Shown here one piece after another: positions 1-6,781 of a stretch of 6,781 nt of DNA. Location: assembly GCA_015055785.1 (NCBI GenBank), contig SVHQ01000096.1, positions 1-6,781 of the forward strand, given 5' to 3'. Numbering within the stretch: position 1 is the first letter of the stretch; the number at the start of each line of letters is the position of its first letter. This DNA comes from Clostridiales bacterium. GTDB lineage: Bacteria > Bacillota_A > Clostridia > Christensenellales > Borkfalkiaceae. Position numbers and translations under genes: made by a program. The notes beneath the pieces were generated by a model. That model searched no databases, was not told where the DNA came from, and worked only from the letters and a program-made list of their open reading frames with translations.

Positions 1-701
1 TGTCCAAGCTCGCACTCTAAGAGTGAAACGCCGTTTTTTATTATCGCTACTGCACTACCAAAACCAGAGTCGATAATCAGTTCCAAATAACGCCTTTCAC
101 AATCGGGGTTTTGTGAATATTCCGCATAGGCAAGCGCATTAGAAAAATTATCTAACACACATTTACAACCAAACTCCCTTTCAAAATAATCTACAATCGA
201 AAAATTTCGCCAAGCCAAGAAATTAGAAACTGCTCCGAGTTTTCCTTCTTCTCTTGAAAGCGGTCCCGGTGCCGTAATACCGATTCCGAGCAAATTGTTT
301 TCATTCTCCAAAAGCTCTTTCAAGTCCATCCGTATATTTTGTAAAGTCCCCTCTGCGTCAAGCGGATCCACAAGTCCTTTTTTTTGCTTTTTGACGTTCC
401 CTATAAAATCGCATACACCCACAACGTACTCGCTTCTGGTAAAATGTACGCCGGCAAAAACGCCGTAGTCCGGATTAAGGCGCAAAACGGTAGCAGGTCT
501 TCCGCCAATGGAAGCCTCTCTCTCCCCCTCCTCTAACAATCCTTCCAAAAGCAATTCTTCGCATATAAAAGAAATTGCCGCGCGCGTGAGCCCCAGCTTT
601 TCCGCAAGCTTTATCCGTGAACACGGCTCTTTTCTGATAAGCCTTAACACTTCATTTCGATTATTCTGTTTCATTATGTCTGCGTTTATTTTTTGTGCCA
701 T
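1..701 (-). CDS. ROK-family transcriptional repressor (NagC/XylR-like), C-terminus cut off by window edge
   Basis: This frame is open from the ATG at 701 to the left edge, giving 233 residues; full-length ROK regulators have about 370-400, so roughly the last 40% is missing. Residues ~15-60 form a winged helix-turn-helix (SRIKLAEKLGLTRAAIS at 28-44), followed by the typical ROK wing GGRP at 66-69. The sugar-kinase-like domain begins near residue 78. It shows the GIGITAPGP turn (139-147), the motif NFLAW (160-164), and the beginning of the glycine-rich ROK signature (DSGFGSAVAIIKNGV at 211-225). The usual catalytic Asp of the ND-A-N motif is replaced by Phe (DNFSN, 184-188), so it should be a regulator, not a kinase. 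It is divergently transcribed from the glycyl radical enzyme operon and probably represses it in the absence of a sugar ligand. The ligand is unknown. No Shine-Dalgarno is visible before the start; a second ATG at codon 10 is the alternative start. The family call is secure; the target is inferred from position. Confidence 0.92.
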   Translation of the reverse strand, partial: MAQKINADIMKQNNRNEVLRLIRKEPCSRIKLAEKLGLTRAAISFICEELLLEGLLEEGEREASIGGRPATVLRLNPDYGVFAGVHFTRSEYVVGVCDFIGNVKKQKKGLVDPLDAEGTLQNIRMDLKELLENENNLLGIGITAPGPLSREEGKLGAVSNFLAWRNFSIVDYFEREFGCKCVLDNFSNALAYAEYSQNPDCERRYLELIIDSGFGSAVAIIKNGVSLLECELG

Positions 702-707
702 AATCTT

Positions 708-736
708 ATTTTACCATTTATATAAAACTTTGTCAA
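708..736 (-). promoter_or_regulatory. Promoter of the ROK repressor gene
   Basis: Read on the minus strand, a consensus -35 TTGACA (731-736) is followed by a 17-bp spacer and a -10 TAAAAT (708-713), with an extended TGG just before the -10. Seven bases after the -10 the predicted start of transcription falls on position 701, the A of the repressor ATG, which implies a leaderless mRNA. The -35 overlaps the left arm of the palindrome at 732-746, which suggests autoregulation. The assignment rests on sequence match only. Confidence 0.75.
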
Positions 737-746
737 ATCATTTGAC
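732..746. promoter_or_regulatory. Perfect 15-bp palindrome, probable ROK repressor operator
   Basis: The sequence GTCAAAT-C-ATTTGAC is a perfect inverted repeat with one central base. Its left arm contains most of the leftward -35 box (731-736) and its right arm most of the rightward -35 box (742-747). A dimeric repressor bound here would block RNA polymerase at both divergent promoters. ROK proteins bind AT-rich palindromes in such positions; that the neighbouring ROK protein is the one that binds is inferred. The symmetry does not extend beyond the 15 bp. Confidence 0.7.
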
Positions 747-770
747 TTACATATGAAATTGTGATAAACT
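742..770 (+). promoter_or_regulatory. Promoter of the glycyl radical enzyme operon
   Basis: A -35 TTGACT (742-747) is separated by 17 bp from a -10 TAAACT (765-770), preceded by an extended TGA (762-764). Transcription should start near 777, giving a leader of about 31 nt that contains the ribosome binding site AGGGAG at 798-803. A stronger-looking TATACT at 770-775 lies too far (22 bp) from the -35 to use it. The -35 overlaps the right arm of the palindrome, so the operon is expected to be repressible. Confidence 0.65.
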
Positions 771-807: not shown

Positions 808-1527
808 ATGCAAATTCGATACTTTCAAAAAGGATTTAATTATTCGCAAGACGGCCCTGGAAACAGATTTGTCGCCCACTTGCAAGGTTGCAATTTGCAT
901 TGTCCGTGGTGCTCTAATCCCGAAGGCATAAATGCAAGCGGTGGAAAAACCGTTTCCGTCGACGATTTCATCAAAGAACTCGTATCTTGCAAACGCTTGT
1001 TTTTTGACGGCGGCGGCGTAACCTTTACGGGCGGCGAATGCACCTTGCAAAAAGACGCTTTAATAGAAGTTTTGAAGTCTTGCAAGCAAAACGGTATACA
1101 TACGGCGATTGAAACGAACGGTACTTGCCCTTATACCGTCGACTTGTTTGAAAATATCGACCTAATCATTAGCGATTTCAAGCATTACGACGAGGAAAAA
1201 TTGAAAAAACAGGTGGGGCAAGTACGAGATTATCGAAAAAATATTACCGATTATCTCAAAAGCGGAAAACCTGTTGTCATCCGTATCGTACTGATAAACG
1301 GATTCAATTCGGAGCAACAAGACGCTATTCAATTTGCTCAATTTTTCAAAGCTTTACCAACGAAAAACACGACGTTTGAGTTCCTCCCTTATCACGAATA
1401 CGGAAAAAACAAGTGGGAAAAGCTTGGTAAAACGTATACGATAAAAAACGGATTTATAACCCCAGACACCGTAAAATTATTTGAGACAATTTTCAAAGCC
1501 TATAATTTGAATACTATAAGGAGCTAA
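808..1527 (+). CDS. Glycyl radical enzyme activating enzyme (radical SAM, PflA-like short form)
   Basis: This 239-residue protein uses a [4Fe-4S] cluster and S-adenosylmethionine to abstract a hydrogen from the glycine of its partner, here surely the enzyme encoded 5 bp downstream. The cluster motif is CxxxCxxC (C28, C32, C35), preceded by the activase hallmark DGPG (15-18). The SAM-binding GGE lies at 75-77. Other activase-type motifs are ETNG (102-105), DFKH (123-126) and LPYHEYGKNKW (193-203). The length matches pyruvate formate-lyase activase (about 245), and the ferredoxin-like insert with two extra [4Fe-4S] clusters found in most dehydratase activases is absent. The ATG at 808 is supported by AGGGAG four bases upstream. 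It is the first gene of the operon, ahead of its substrate enzyme, the reverse of the E. coli pfl order. Activase function is secure; partner identity rests on adjacency. Confidence 0.95.
   Translation: MQIRYFQKGFNYSQDGPGNRFVAHLQGCNLHCPWCSNPEGINASGGKTVSVDDFIKELVSCKRLFFDGGGVTFTGGECTLQKDALIEVLKSCKQNGIHTAIETNGTCPYTVDLFENIDLIISDFKHYDEEKLKKQVGQVRDYRKNITDYLKSGKPVVIRIVLINGFNSEQQDAIQFAQFFKALPTKNTTFEFLPYHEYGKNKWEKLGKTYTIKNGFITPDTVKLFETIFKAYNLNTIRS
1518..1523 (+). promoter_or_regulatory. Ribosome binding site of the glycyl radical enzyme gene
   Basis: AAGGAG lies 9 bases before the ATG at 1533 and inside the last codons of the activase gene, so translation of the two genes is probably coupled. It fixes the start at 1533. 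Confidence 0.85.
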
Positions 1528-1532
1528 CTACT

Positions 1533-3896
1533 ATGCGATACGATTGCAACAAATTAGACGAACAAGCCAGACTGCTTTTCAAAGAAGAACGAGCCCTTAC
1601 TCGCCTTGACGGCTGGTTTATTTTACGCGAAACCATTCTTTCTTACGAAGAAGCGCACAAGGATACGCCCAAAGAATTATTGGCGGCGGAGGCACTTTGT
1701 TACGCGTTAGAACGACTTCCCCTTTCGTTAAGCAAAAACGCCGTATTTGCCGGCACGCAACGGGATGCGTTTGCGCAAAGCTACGCGCTCATCAACCCCA
1801 ACTTTAAGTTAAGTACGTTTAACGGCTACTGTGACCCTACCGCCGTATTTAACGATATCGAGCCTAACGAAGAATTTACGGTTGAACGCATTCACCGCGT
1901 TAGAAAACAAACGGAAGAAAGCGATTACGTGCGCTCATTGAAAGAAGTTTATGCAAACGCGGAAATAGACACCAAAGAAGTGGCATACTTTATCGAACAG
2001 GTAACGGGGCACCTTATCCCCGATTTTAGAAAAGCAATCGCTTACGGCTTAAACGCTTTACAATCGGAAATTGAAGAAAAGATAAAGTCGGAAACCGACG
2101 AGAAAAAGATACTTAATTTACAAGCCTTTTCCATTTCTTTGAACGGTGCAAAAATCCTTGCTCGACGTTATATTGAACTTGCTAAAGAGCAAAAAGCAAC
2201 CGCAACGGGCGAACGTTTACAAGAACTTGACCGTTTAATTGACGCGCTTGAAAAAGTACCGGCTTTTGGTGCGGAAACGCTATTTGAAGCCATTCAAAGC
2301 TTTATGCTTTTATGGTCGGTTATGTGCTTAGAACAAGCTCCTAATCCTTTCGCATTTTCCGTAGGAAACGCGGATAGAATTTTCGAACCGTATAGAGCGC
2401 AAGAAAATCTTTCCCGTGAAGAATCGGCAGGTCTTTTGAAGCATTTCCTTTTATTCTTCAACGTGGGTAGCAGAAGCTGGGCGATTTCGCAAAACATTTT
2501 AATCGGTGGCAAAGACAACAACGGCAACGATTTGACAAATCTTACGAGCTTTGCTCTTCTCGACGCCTACTACGCAATGAATTTCCCCCAGCCTATTCTT
2601 TCGGTAAAACTCCATAAAAACACCCCTGATTGTATGTATGAAGAACTTGGTAGATTCTTCTTTACGCCCGGTTGTCTTACCCCGTCTCTTTTCAACGACG
2701 ATACGGTATTCCCTATTCTCAAAAATAACGGCGTGGACAAAAATGACCTGCCTGATTATTCGGTAGCAGGCTGTCAAGAGCCGCTGATTATGGGCAAGGA
2801 CAACGGGAACACGACGAACAGTTGGCTCAACCTCGCCAAGATTCTTGAACTTGTCTTAAACGACGGAAAATCGCTTATTACCAGCGAACAACTTACCGAT
2901 TGCAAACCCTATGCAAACGCAAGGGAATTACTTTCTACCGTTCGGGAACGTTTCTACGAAAAAACGGAAGAATATATCGACAAAATGTGCAAGGCAGCAA
3001 ACGGCGCAAGCATTGCCGTGTCACACTTAAAAGTGCCTTTCCTTTCCTGTTTTATGGGTGGCATAGAAACGGGCATTGATACGCGCGACGTGCAAGCGCA
3101 AGGCACGAAGTATAACGGCAGCGGCTGTTTGATTCACGGCCTTTCCGTCGTGGCAGACGCATTTATTGCCATTGATAAATTGCTCGAGGAACGCCCTGAG
3201 GATAGCGAACAGTTGCTTCTCGCTTTGCAAAAGGATTTCGTGGGCGAAGAAGAGCTGCAAAAATACTTGCTTGCTTGTCCGAAATACGGCAACAATATTG
3301 CCCGTGTAGACGACGAAACCGCGGAAATTGCAAAGAAAATTAGTATTGCCGTTCGAGCAAGAAAAAACTATCTCGGCAACCCCTTCCGTCCCGATTGGAG
3401 TAGTCCTACCACCCATTTAACCTACGGGTATTGGGTAGGCGCAACCCCCGACGGGAGAAAAGCAAGAACTATGCTCGGATACGGTGTTGACCCTTTGTTT
3501 TGCACGGCGGAAAACGGACTTGGATTCCGTATCCTGTCTTTGTTCAAGCTTGATTTCTTAGAGTTTAACGGCGGTTACGCTTCCCACCTTGGCCTTGATC
3601 CGAAATACTTCAAAGGCGAAACCTTGGAAGAAAAAGGGTTAGAGTTCAAAAATAAAATTATGAAACCGTTATTCTTCTCGTCAGAAAACGACAACGCGCC
3701 TTTCTATCTCTACGTAAACGTAACCACGCCTGAAATTTTAAGAAAGGTTCTTGCCAACCCAAAGAAATATGCGCCGAGCGGTGTGTATATTATGCGTATT
3801 CACGGCACGTTCGTAAACTTCTTGGATTTGTCCCCTGACGTGCAAGAAGACATCATCAAACGTCTTGATTTGTCGTCCACGACTTACGGAGGCTAA
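1533..3896 (+). CDS. Glycyl radical enzyme of the PFL/dehydratase superfamily, divergent subfamily, substrate unknown
   Basis: At 787 residues the protein has the usual family length and full-length architecture: an N-terminal PFL-type domain (about 1-630) and a C-terminal glycyl radical domain (about 635-787). Family landmarks are VTGHLIPDF (157-165), the thiyl-radical loop GCQEP with catalytic C414 and probable base E416, ATPDGR (637-642), and the radical loop MRIHGTF with G758, 29 residues before the end. The Cys-x-Glu arrangement resembles glycerol/propanediol dehydratases and C-O or C-N lyases; true pyruvate formate-lyase has two adjacent cysteines, so it is probably not PFL. Several normally conserved stretches are altered: the usual RV-S/A-G-Y is R-I-H-G-T, and the Gly-Pro-rich segment after ATPDGR reads GLGFRILSLF. 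There is no N-terminal microcompartment-targeting extension. The neighbouring kinase and ROK repressor point to a sugar, polyol or sugar phosphate substrate. Family membership is certain; the reaction is not. Confidence 0.95.
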   Translation: MRYDCNKLDEQARLLFKEERALTRLDGWFILRETILSYEEAHKDTPKELLAAEALCYALERLPLSLSKNAVFAGTQRDAFAQSYALINPNFKLSTFNGYCDPTAVFNDIEPNEEFTVERIHRVRKQTEESDYVRSLKEVYANAEIDTKEVAYFIEQVTGHLIPDFRKAIAYGLNALQSEIEEKIKSETDEKKILNLQAFSISLNGAKILARRYIELAKEQKATATGERLQELDRLIDALEKVPAFGAETLFEAIQSFMLLWSVMCLEQAPNPFAFSVGNADRIFEPYRAQENLSREESAGLLKHFLLFFNVGSRSWAISQNILIGGKDNNGNDLTNLTSFALLDAYYAMNFPQPILSVKLHKNTPDCMYEELGRFFFTPGCLTPSLFNDDTVFPILKNNGVDKNDLPDYSVAGCQEPLIMGKDNGNTTNSWLNLAKILELVLNDGKSLITSEQLTDCKPYANARELLSTVRERFYEKTEEYIDKMCKAANGASIAVSHLKVPFLSCFMGGIETGIDTRDVQAQGTKYNGSGCLIHGLSVVADAFIAIDKLLEERPEDSEQLLLALQKDFVGEEELQKYLLACPKYGNNIARVDDETAEIAKKISIAVRARKNYLGNPFRPDWSSPTTHLTYGYWVGATPDGRKARTMLGYGVDPLFCTAENGLGFRILSLFKLDFLEFNGGYASHLGLDPKYFKGETLEEKGLEFKNKIMKPLFFSSENDNAPFYLYVNVTTPEILRKVLANPKKYAPSGVYIMRIHGTFVNFLDLSPDVQEDIIKRLDLSSTTYGG
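3888..3892 (+). promoter_or_regulatory. Ribosome binding site that fixes the kinase start
   Basis: GGAGG lies 8 bases before the ATG at 3901 and encodes part of the final two glycines of the preceding enzyme. It supports ATG 3901 over the upstream in-frame TTG at 3865, which has no such site and would overlap the preceding gene. Confidence 0.88.
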
Positions 3897-3900
3897 TATT

Positions 3901-5214
3901 ATGTATCTTGGACTTGATATCGGCACGACTTCTATTTGTGCCGTCGTTTTAGACGGAAACGGAACCGTCGTTTATACTACTACCAAAGCAAACGACTATC
4001 ACCAACTCAACGAAAACGGAGAGCGCAAGCAAGACGCCGAAAAGATTTTCTCGCTTTGTGAAGAAATCTATCACGAAACGGTTAAAAAATTTGCCGTAAA
4101 AAGCGTAGGTGTTTCAGGGCAAATGCACGGTATTTTATACGTGGACAAAAACGGCCAAGCCGTTTCTCCACTCTACTCGTGGCAGGACGAGCGTGGGAAT
4201 TTACCTTTTGAAAATGCAACGTATGCGGAAGCGCTTTCTATCCGCAGCGGATATACTATGGCAACGGGTTTCGGGTGCACTAGCGTATTTTATGATTTCG
4301 TAAACAAGGCAATTCCACAAAACGCCGTTTCCTTTTGCACAATCGGCGACTACGTCGCAATGAAACTTGCAAAAAAGTCCAAACCGCTCTTAAACGAAAC
4401 CAACGCAGCGTCTTTGGGTCTTTACGATATCAAAAATCACAGTTGGGATTTTCAAGCAATTTCTCGCGTCGGCTTACCTACTTCGTTATTTCCCGAAACG
4501 TCGGCTAACGTGGTAGAACTTGGACAAACGACGGAAGGTAGTTCCGTGTTTACGGCGATTGGCGATAATCAAGCGAGCGTGTACGGCGCGGAGCAATCCC
4601 CCGATACGATTATCGTAAATATTGGCACGGGAAGTCAGATTTCCGTCCTTACAAGCGAATATCATACACCTCCCGTCGGCTGTGAAATTCGCCCTTATTT
4701 TAACGGACGCTATTTGATGTTGGGTTGCGCACTCTGCGGTGGATATTCCTATCGACTTTTGAAAGATTTTTTTAACACCGTTTCCGAAAAAGAAATCACT
4801 TATGAAACAATGAATAGTTGGGCGGAAAGTGCGTTAAACGCACACCTGCCTACCACCTATCCTCTTTTCCGTGGTACGAGAACGAATCCAACTTTACGCG
4901 CAAACATTTGCGAGCTTTCCGAAAATAACTTCAACGCGCAAGCCCTTACGTTATCCGTTTTGAAAGGTATTAGCCGTGAATTGAAAGATTTCTACGCATT
5001 AATAACGCCTGCCACGGGCAAGCGCTCTCATTTAGTCGGTTCTGGAAATGCAATTCGTATGAATCCCGTCTTAAAACAAATTATTGAAACGGATTACAGT
5101 ATGTCGCTAAATATTCCCGTTCACAAGGAAGAAGCGGCGTTTGGCGCGGCACTGATTGCAGCGGAAACGCTTGAAAACAAAAGTCTGAAAAGCTTTATAC
5201 GTTATATACGATAA
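3901..5214 (+). CDS. FGGY-family carbohydrate kinase, sedoheptulokinase-like
   Basis: The 437-residue protein has the two-domain FGGY fold pattern: the ATP phosphate loop DIGTTS at 6-11, SGQMHG at 72-77 and WQDER at 94-98 in the sugar-binding half, the catalytic Asp D222 in GDNQASVYGA (221-230), the second phosphate loop NIGTGSQ (240-246), and an adenosine-site GSGNA (380-384). The stretches TGFGC (122-126), NAAS (168-171) and GD-x-QASVY closely resemble sedoheptulokinase (SHPK/CARKL) as I remember it, more than xylulokinase or glycerol kinase. This suggests a ketose such as sedoheptulose, or a deoxyketose, phosphorylated at its terminal hydroxyl. It is somewhat shorter than the ~480 residues of animal SHPK. 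It starts 4 bp after the glycyl radical enzyme gene and is translationally linked to it, so it should act in the same pathway, before or after the radical step. Kinase family is secure; substrate is not. Confidence 0.92.
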   Translation: MYLGLDIGTTSICAVVLDGNGTVVYTTTKANDYHQLNENGERKQDAEKIFSLCEEIYHETVKKFAVKSVGVSGQMHGILYVDKNGQAVSPLYSWQDERGNLPFENATYAEALSIRSGYTMATGFGCTSVFYDFVNKAIPQNAVSFCTIGDYVAMKLAKKSKPLLNETNAASLGLYDIKNHSWDFQAISRVGLPTSLFPETSANVVELGQTTEGSSVFTAIGDNQASVYGAEQSPDTIIVNIGTGSQISVLTSEYHTPPVGCEIRPYFNGRYLMLGCALCGGYSYRLLKDFFNTVSEKEITYETMNSWAESALNAHLPTTYPLFRGTRTNPTLRANICELSENNFNAQALTLSVLKGISRELKDFYALITPATGKRSHLVGSGNAIRMNPVLKQIIETDYSMSLNIPVHKEEAAFGAALIAAETLENKSLKSFIRYIR

Positions 5215-5434: not shown

Positions 5435-5471
5435 AAAAAAGACGAGATTGAATAAATCTCGTCTTTTTTTT
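5435..5471. terminator. Bidirectional intrinsic terminator between convergent genes
   Basis: A perfect stem of GACGAGATT (5441-5449) with AATCTCGTC (5455-5463) encloses the loop GAATA. Eight Ts follow on the plus strand and six As precede it, so it works in both directions and the A/T flanks extend the stem to 15 bp. It should end the operon arriving from the left and the hydrolase transcript arriving from the right, whose stop codon is about 40 bp away. Confidence 0.93.
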
Positions 5472-5511: not shown

Positions 5512-6159
5512 TCAAAATAACAACTTTAATGCTCTCAATTTTTCAGTTATTGCTTTTGCAATCAAAATATGCCCTGCTTCATTTGGATGGCATCCGTCAC
5601 TGGTATGCTCCTGCCATGAAAAGCCAAAATCATGAAACAGATTCAAACAAGGAATGTCATTTTCCTCACAAATCGTCGCTATAATATCAACGTACTGCTT
5701 CAATGTATGCCCGTTATAATTCTTTTCACTCGTATCGTGGCGGTTGGACTCTTGCCAATAACTTCCGCCACAGAAATTTCCAATTCCGTTATGCGGATAC
5801 GGGGTTACAAATAATGTGGTTTTTTCGAGTCTTTTTTCTTTTACTTGCTTCGCAAGCTTTCTTACCGCAAATTCAAAGTATTGCTCTCCATATCCATGTA
5901 TCGGTCTATCGCTCCAAAAATAGTCATTCGTTCCGCCAAAAACAATAGCAACATCGGCATCATCTATCAAATGAGCTCGACTCAAAAAATCTTTTCCATC
6001 CGTTTGATTCAATCCTGCTTTTGCAACCAAGGTGCCGGTAATACCGTAATTCAATTCATCCATTTTCAATGCTTGACTAACCAAAGTAGAATATCTGTTT
6101 TCTTTATGCTCCAAACCATACCCAAAGGTAATACTATCACCCAAAAATGCAATCGTCAT
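5512..6159 (-). CDS. SGNH/GDSL-family hydrolase (esterase/deacylase), cytoplasmic
   Basis: The 215-residue protein carries the SGNH blocks in order: GDSIT (7-11) with nucleophile S9, a block II Gly in NYGITG (37-42), GGTNDY (75-80) with N78, and the block V pair D188 and H191 in SDGCHPNEAGH. All four catalytic or oxyanion residues are therefore present and the length is typical for single-domain members. There is no signal peptide or membrane segment, so it should act in the cytoplasm on a small ester, perhaps an acylated sugar, but the substrate cannot be read from the sequence. The start at 6159 is chosen because GGGAGG lies 7 bases upstream; an in-frame TTG at 6174 would lie upstream of that site. 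The gene converges on the kinase operon, has its own promoter, and shares only a terminator with it, so a pathway link is not implied. Confidence 0.9.
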   Translation of the reverse strand: MTIAFLGDSITFGYGLEHKENRYSTLVSQALKMDELNYGITGTLVAKAGLNQTDGKDFLSRAHLIDDADVAIVFGGTNDYFWSDRPIHGYGEQYFEFAVRKLAKQVKEKRLEKTTLFVTPYPHNGIGNFCGGSYWQESNRHDTSEKNYNGHTLKQYVDIIATICEENDIPCLNLFHDFGFSWQEHTSDGCHPNEAGHILIAKAITEKLRALKLLF

Positions 6160-6484: not shown

Positions 6485-6569
6485 TGCGACAATGACAGGT
6501 CGTAATCGTAGATTACTCCCTGCTTTGGCTACCAACAGTCCACTGGACTGTTTGCTTTACGCGTCGCGC
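6485..6569. repeat. Non-coding repeat module, copy 1
   Basis: The first 46 bases (6485-6530) recur 165 bp later with one mismatch and include the hairpin GTAATC-GTA-GATTAC (6502-6516). A second hairpin follows, AACAGTCC-ACT-GGACTGTT (6534-6552), then the sequence GCGTCGCGC (6561-6569). All three parts recur in the same order in copy 2. I read it as non-coding because the hairpins are conserved by pairing and the open frame through it has no ribosome binding site. Confidence 0.8.
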
Positions 6570-6649: not shown

Positions 6650-6781
6650 TGCGACAATGACAGGTCGTAATCGTAGATTACTCCCCGCTTTGGCTAAAAA
6701 CAATTCTCTGGATTGTTTTTACGGAACTTCGTTCCGCCGCGTCGCGCAGTTAACAGCCTTCGTCTGTTAACCTTCGTGTCG
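6650..6781. repeat. Non-coding repeat module, copy 2, running off the window edge
   Basis: Bases 6650-6695 match copy 1 at 45 of 46 positions, including GTAATC-GTA-GATTAC (6667-6681). The second hairpin is an 11-bp stem pairing 6696-6706 with 6710-6720 around TCT. It aligns without gaps to the copy 1 hairpin, with one compensatory base-pair change. An extra hairpin CGGAAC-TTC-GTTCCG (6722-6736) is inserted before GCGTCGCGC (6739-6747), and GTTAACAG with CTGTTAAC (6749-6771) forms a further 8-bp stem. The unit may continue past the edge. Confidence 0.8.

Follow-up and report, generated by a model that had tools for sequence, protein, structure and literature searches.

The question raised by a 6,781-nt stretch of DNA from a Clostridiales bacterium of the Borkfalkiaceae (SVHQ01000096.1, assembly GCA_015055785.1; hereafter the window) is what an operon joining a divergent glycyl radical enzyme (GRE) to a sugar kinase may be for. 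On its plus strand, the genes for a radical SAM GRE-activating enzyme (positions 808 to 1527; 239 residues), a GRE of the pyruvate formate-lyase (PFL)-like type (1533 to 3896; 787 residues) and an FGGY-family, sedoheptulokinase-like sugar kinase (ATG start, 3901 to 5214; 437 residues) are separated by 5 and 4 bases, respectively, and the Shine-Dalgarno runs of the GRE (AAGGAG) and the kinase (GGAGG) are located within the 3' end of the preceding gene. The gene for a ROK-family transcriptional regulator (3 to 701, minus strand; first 233 residues, cut at the window start) is divergent from this row. These positions, together with the match of the regulator to PF00480, bear out the tight packing, with 4-5 bp gaps and overlapping ribosome binding sites, and the ROK gene beside the operon that a first-pass annotation of this DNA had described. 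As judged from sequence comparisons, the GRE represents a new, undescribed family inside a known superfamily; its radical loop is altered and its kinase partner is conserved. We suggest that the operon may be a ROK-regulated sugar-catabolic module around this family, and hold the full mechanism proposed below at a probability of roughly 0.42.

The window GRE matched PF02901 (PFL-like) with 366 bits, and the GRE barrel fold extends across the whole chain. Cys414, Glu416 and Gly758 were invariant in all members of a family alignment of 160 sequences. The codons of Cys414-Gln415-Glu416 (2772 to 2780, plus strand) specify the presumed thiyl Cys and elimination Glu, and that of Gly758 (3804 to 3806, plus strand) the presumed glycyl radical residue. 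In glycerol dehydratase, the corresponding roles belong to Cys433 and Glu435, with which Cys414 and Glu416 align; Gly758 is aligned with the RVAGY glycine of YbiW, PflD and 1r8w. The active site, AGCQEP, holds a single Cys in 160/160 sequences and no adjacent Cys-Cys pair of the kind found in pyruvate formate-lyase, and the Cys-x-Glu pair places the enzyme with the eliminating GREs rather than with PFL. The glycyl loop reads RIHGTF in place of RVxGY. The window GRE gave no match to the Gly_radical model PF01228 at E ≤ 10 (113.5 bits for YbiW as a control), and the 120 relatives listed matched PF02901 only; since the glycine and the arginine align, we read RIHGTF as a divergent loop. Invariant or near-invariant stretches absent from YbiW and PflD include EQxPNPFAFS, RSWAISQ, QEPLIxGxDNxNTTNxW and RxDxxxPxTH, and their richness in polar residues suggests a polyhydroxylated ligand. 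A second, distinct GRE in locus L089 (genome G003) combines a GCQEP active site with a normal loop, RVCGY, and exceeds the cut-off of no GRE model.

The nearest solved GRE structure shares 25% identity with the window enzyme, the closest ones being glycerol and propanediol dehydratases, and the ten NCBIfam GRE models that matched all remained well below cut-off (best, 276 of 678 bits). In a phylogenetic tree, all 29 sampled family members fell on one side of a branch with 100/100 support and a length of 4.4, which excludes YbiW, PflD, HypD (L076), the PFL rows and the diol-dehydratase-like rows; the last were labelled by motif, and long branches leave the outer placement unsure. Clustering with a characterised family, named in the first-pass annotation as an outcome that would overturn its proposal, was found for none of the families tested by tree and NCBIfam models. 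On the NCBIfam scores, the structure alignment and the tree, we rejected a known GRE identity. The GREs of L070 and L108 (genomes G013 and G1462) are near-identical, with end branches of 0.017 and 0.016, and have different downstream neighbours, as expected of either recent transfer or contamination. Locus L014 holds, at 8080-8619, a broken GRE remnant (residues ~206-394, one stop) directly followed by kinase-like and MPI-like (see below) sequence, a product of decay or misassembly.

Neighbours were counted by tblastn over 45 loci besides the window, with names taken from scanned representatives and given by similarity in the remaining loci. Duplicates (L015, L016, L020-L022, L030, L034 and L035) were left out, short loci were swapped for longer stretches, and G1215 (L046, internal stop) entered no tally. 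The 45 loci are non-independent: L006/L007/L009 are nearly copies of one another, as are L105/L106, a single genome supplied both L013 and L070, several of L061-L069 are mutually close, and L014 contributes only its broken GRE fragment. An activase match adjoins the GRE in 40 of these relatives; in three of the five others (L057, L059 and L060) the GRE stands at the very start of the stretch. The window activase matched PF04055 (7.4e-20) and contains CxxxCxxC, and its nearest NCBIfam models, PFLA (181.7 of 231.75 bits) and PFLE_PFLC (172.8 of 174.35), were both under cut-off. Activases of the family occur in two forms, with or without a Cys-rich insert of 4-6 Cys between CxxxCxxC and the GGGVTF region; the window enzyme is of the form without it, and those of L006, L007, L009, L061-L067, L069 and L073 carry it.

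The partnership of the GRE with the kinase is conserved. A window-like kinase (at least 150 bits) was found within 4 kb of the GRE, always on its strand, in 31/45 relatives, and six more have a different kind of FGGY kinase there, so that the adjacency in relatives, on which the earlier proposal had also been made to depend, is retained. In a sample of 151 genomes, the same seven carried both GRE and kinase, the genes being adjacent in six; the chance of this coincidence is 3e-12 on the assumption of independent genomes, which these are not. Among the 120 GRE and 120 kinase matches listed, the longest contigs were identical in size 13 times, as compared with 0.4 in jittered controls. The window kinase matched FGGY_N (1.8e-26; 93.7 bits vs. 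a gathering score of 28.8) and FGGY_C (2.5e-6; 27.8 vs. 27). Both domains and the SGQMHG motif are features in common with xylulokinase and sedoheptulokinase; in contrast to these, it lies far below the cut-off of each NCBIfam model matched, the best being XylB at 129 of 380 bits. The sedoheptulokinase-like label given at first is in keeping with the FGGY domains and with the names of kinase relatives (seven of the 120 listed are called sedoheptulokinase, and nine carry any name), but as a label it rests on source names.

The other frequent partner, absent from the window, is a mannose-6-phosphate-isomerase-like (MPI-like) enzyme, located within 4 kb of the GRE in 17 of the 45 relatives. Its domain is fused to the kinase in two cases (L005 and L123) and to the activase in one (P0336, whose activase is 40% identical to that of the window). 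Like type I mannose-6-phosphate isomerase (1qwr), it keeps the positions QxH, E and H, which we take to be the zinc ligands, and the Arg that follows; it differs in scoring 75 bits to 1qwr and 74.5 of 116.2 bits with the manA model. This enzyme could act on free or phosphorylated sugars. Five of the longest-contig sizes among 120 listed MPI-like matches equalled those of GRE matches, as against 0.4 expected. For Oscillospiraceae bacterium PP1C4, a contig of 556,705 bases is given for both the GRE match P0072 and the MPI-like match P0242. Four did so for MPI-like and kinase matches (0.7 expected), but since the best jittered control also reached four, this comparison was not used. Further neighbours were D-psicose 3-epimerase, D-lyxose/D-mannose isomerase and a GmhA-like protein (2/45 each) and an RbsA-like protein (3/45). 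Fructose-6-phosphate aldolase (FSA) was found within 4 kb of the GRE in 4/45 loci, on the opposite strand in L062 and L069.

The features established here are a full GRE fold with the Cys-x-Glu motif of eliminating GREs, an adjoining activase, a conserved FGGY kinase, a frequent MPI-like partner and an operator-like palindrome present in several loci. In the pathway that we propose, the activase would put a radical on Gly758, from which it would move to Cys414; the Cys414 thiyl would abstract a carbon-bound hydrogen beside a C-O bond in a substrate resembling a sugar, and an oxygen group (ring oxygen or hydroxyl) would be lost, with Glu416 as acid/base, leaving a carbonyl product. The substrate would probably be an anhydrohexitol or a sugar, unphosphorylated in either case, with the stereochemistry of the mannose/fructose/sedoheptulose series. 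The product would be a ketose, or be turned into one by an enzyme that varies with the lineage (the MPI-like isomerase, D-psicose 3-epimerase or D-lyxose/D-mannose isomerase). The FGGY kinase would phosphorylate this ketose, which would then be consumed by central metabolism or by FSA, encoded within the cluster in some lineages and presumably at another site in the rest. Overall, this would be a kinase-fed counterpart to the pathway of YbiW and PflD, which is fed by the phosphotransferase system (PTS). Tentatively, and at somewhat less than even odds, we regard the RIHGTF-loop enzymes as a new GRE class that would carry out a radical elimination at a C-O bond of a sugar or anhydrosugar bearing no phosphate. 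With a dedicated ketose kinase and a mannose-isomerase-like partner, they would form an undescribed anaerobic route of sugar degradation, which may occur here and there among Clostridia from the gut, the rumen and other oxygen-free habitats.

Escherichia coli YbiW and PflD open the rings of 1,5-anhydroglucitol- and 1,5-anhydromannitol-6-phosphate. According to PMC12441222, they act on 6-phosphates with 1-deoxyfructose 6-phosphate as the product, and the PDB titles of 8id7 and 8id0 agree with this action. The window family shares with them the GRE fold, the Cys-x-Glu pair and an activase of its own. In 4 of the 45 relatives, though not in the window, FSA is a neighbour as well, as ybiW lies near fsaA and the pflD cluster near fsaB and gldA. 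It differs in forming a separate clade, in the RIHGTF loop and pocket residues, and in the company of the GRE: an FGGY kinase, an MPI-like isomerase and, in some loci, ABC transporters, in contrast to the PTS of E. coli. The suggestion, made in the first-pass annotation, of chemistry like that of YbiW and PflD gains some support from the FSA genes and is weakened by the separate position in the tree, the pocket residues and an isomerase that has no obvious role on a 1-deoxyketose route. Among the papers listed from open-licence PMC, no title or abstract start described a GRE + FGGY kinase system, and the pairs GRE + FGGY and GRE + sedoheptulokinase gave no paper there; large GRE surveys may contain the family as a cluster without a name.

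Several observations weigh against the pathway proposed above. Four positions that we take from the alignment to be diol ligands of glycerol dehydratase are replaced across the 160 members (H281 by F/Y273, S282 by A274, Y339 by S319 and D447 by T428), unlike in the B12-independent glycerol and propanediol dehydratases (1r8w, 5i2a), and only His160, corresponding to H164, is kept. YbiW differs from the family at three of these four positions and PflD at all four, so that, save for Thr428 in YbiW, the residues are those of neither enzyme. No FGGY kinase was found by tblastn within 4 kb of the GRE in eight of the 45 loci. Two of these have a kinase at the end of another contig (L122 and L123) beside a similar piece of the operon, and these pieces presumably belong with the respective GRE loci. 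Three others carry the kinase at a different place in the genome (G002, G008 and G1462; in G002 it adjoins an MPI-like gene away from the GRE). In the genomes of the remaining three (G003, G004 and G1292), a search at E ≤ 1e-40 found no kinase like that of the window. With 2815 matches, the MPI-like family is a large one, and the enzyme is probably not dedicated to the GRE pathway everywhere. FSA was absent from the retrieved stretches of 41/45 loci and from the window, and a GldA bait gave a single weak match (24% identity, L053). Finally, C1/C2 isomerases cannot act on a 1-deoxyketose, which leaves the MPI-like partner at odds with the anhydrohexitol route in its simplest form. Its presence would point to a different elimination or to a mannose-type sugar released at the same time, which is why we keep the full mechanism at the probability given above and retain the following alternatives.

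The alternative that survives best, which we nevertheless consider unlikely, is that the kinase acts first, in place of the PTS, by phosphorylating a 1,5-anhydrohexitol or similar polyol whose 6-phosphate the GRE would open in the manner of YbiW and PflD. The use of 6-phosphates by these two enzymes and the FSA genes near the GRE in four loci are in line with this order, and annotation of the neighbours, which covered chosen representatives, revealed no PTS gene. On the other hand, the GRE lies outside the YbiW/PflD part of the tree with pocket residues unlike both, the kinase is of the ketose-kinase type by source name and, as we assume, by its SGQMHG motif, and the MPI-like partner would be left unexplained. 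Still less probable is an action of the GRE on the aglycone (a polyol or diol) of a glycoside, or a cleavage of an ether to a sugar, with the neighbouring glycosidases, isomerase, kinase and aldolase handling the released mannose-type sugar. The GH38 genes within ~5 kb of the GRE in 4/45 loci, the GH172 (DUF2961) genes in two, the D-lyxose/D-mannose isomerase genes in two and an SGNH esterase gene both in the gene row of L056 and next to the window operon would be explained by it, but the commonest and tightest partner is a kinase and no glycosidase, and the nearest relative, L071 (94%), has only ROK, activase, GRE and kinase in common with the window, with no isomerase or aldolase beside either operon. 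As clues to the substrate, GH38, GH172 and SGNH were set aside, each occurring in too few loci to decide.

We give marginally less weight again to a heptose or heptulose pathway of the sedoheptulose/manno-heptose series in place of a hexose one. Sedoheptulose relates to D-glycero-D-manno-heptose in its stereochemistry as fructose does to mannose, which, with the sedoheptulokinase names among the kinase relatives and the GmhA-like SIS protein directly 3' of the GRE in L003 and L060, speaks for such a pathway; that protein is, however, below its family cut-off (140.6 of 209.45 bits) and confined to these two loci, and the family assignments of the remaining isomerases and of the epimerase point to hexoses. 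A characterised activity in a merely divergent enzyme (glycerol/propanediol dehydratase, PFL-type, hydroxyproline dehydratase or choline/sulfonate lyase) is very improbable, as the closeness to the diol dehydratase structures is outweighed by the NCBIfam scores, the separate branch and the replaced diol ligands, and no diol-utilisation genes were recognised among the annotated neighbours of family GREs.

In a Pfam scan, the regulator matched PF00480 (1.7e-10; 41.4 bits vs. a gathering score of 22.9). Its best NCBIfam match was NagC (66 bits), well below cut-off; the NagC and Mlc models, both below their cut-offs, cover it from residue 5-7 onward, and a helix-turn-helix-type Pfam model also matched below cut-off. 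The protein, whose homologue in L071 has 345 residues, appears to combine a ROK domain with an N-terminal DNA-binding part, as in ROK regulators. Promoter-like sites precede both the ROK gene (708 to 736, minus strand; TTGACA-17-TAAAAT, 11/12) and the operon (742 to 770, plus strand; TTGACT-17-TAAACT with TG before the -10, 9/12). The single promoter first proposed for the operon is compatible with the latter site, which, like the former, is a consensus match only. Between the genes, a palindromic operator candidate for the ROK regulator, GTCAAATCATTTGAC (732 to 746), overlaps the -35 hexamers of both sites. The pattern TYAAATSATTTRA occurred six times in 751,901 bases (46 loci including the window), as compared with a Markov expectation of 0.5, and all six occurrences sit upstream of the activase gene of the operon, in five loci with GRE identities down to 63% (the window, L104, L072 twice, L052 and L005). 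Because the pattern was drawn from these same upstream regions, the weight of the result comes from the lack of occurrences outside them. A looser pattern gave 22 matches against 12.5 expected, 11 before the activase and 11 elsewhere, and added L071, L107, L047 and L054 (twice) upstream of the activase. An operator-like palindrome, as read from sequence, is common to several loci.

The GRE is sparse, being found in 5/396, 14/391, 1/398, 12/250, 2/16, 7/151, 2/74 and 3/20 genomes of eight overlapping samples that include the seed genomes (cut-off 1e-150, or 1e-120 in two samples). Among the most difficult bond cleavages achieved anaerobically in the gut are several carried out by GREs, and nutrients that had been overlooked have come to light through new isofunctional families. 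The family described here is set apart by tree, alignment and active site. Its altered RIHGTF loop tests how far a glycyl-radical site can change, and the PF01228 result suggests that surveys relying on this model alone would miss such enzymes. The kinase partner, the isomerase fused to two other proteins and the readable regulator site narrow the search for the substrate to a small sugar panel.

Genes of the URO-D type (methyltransferase-like) stand beside the GRE in L003, where there are four, L060 and L006/L007/L009. Related lipoprotein-like proteins of 506-539 residues are encoded near the GRE in L010, L011 and L013, those of L010 and L011 giving no Pfam match at E ≤ 1e-4, and are possibly substrate-binding. 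In the window, a possible bidirectional terminator follows the kinase gene (5435 to 5469; a 15-pair stem in the minus-strand listing, with a T run also on the plus strand). Beyond it lies a convergent SGNH/GDSL hydrolase gene (5512 to 6159), the more distant counterpart of which (69 bits) stands between GH172 and the kinase in L056; the hydrolase may serve to deacylate an esterified sugar. Two direct repeats of 69 bases (6485-6553 and 6650-6718), 90% identical and 165 bases apart, lie at the right end of the window.
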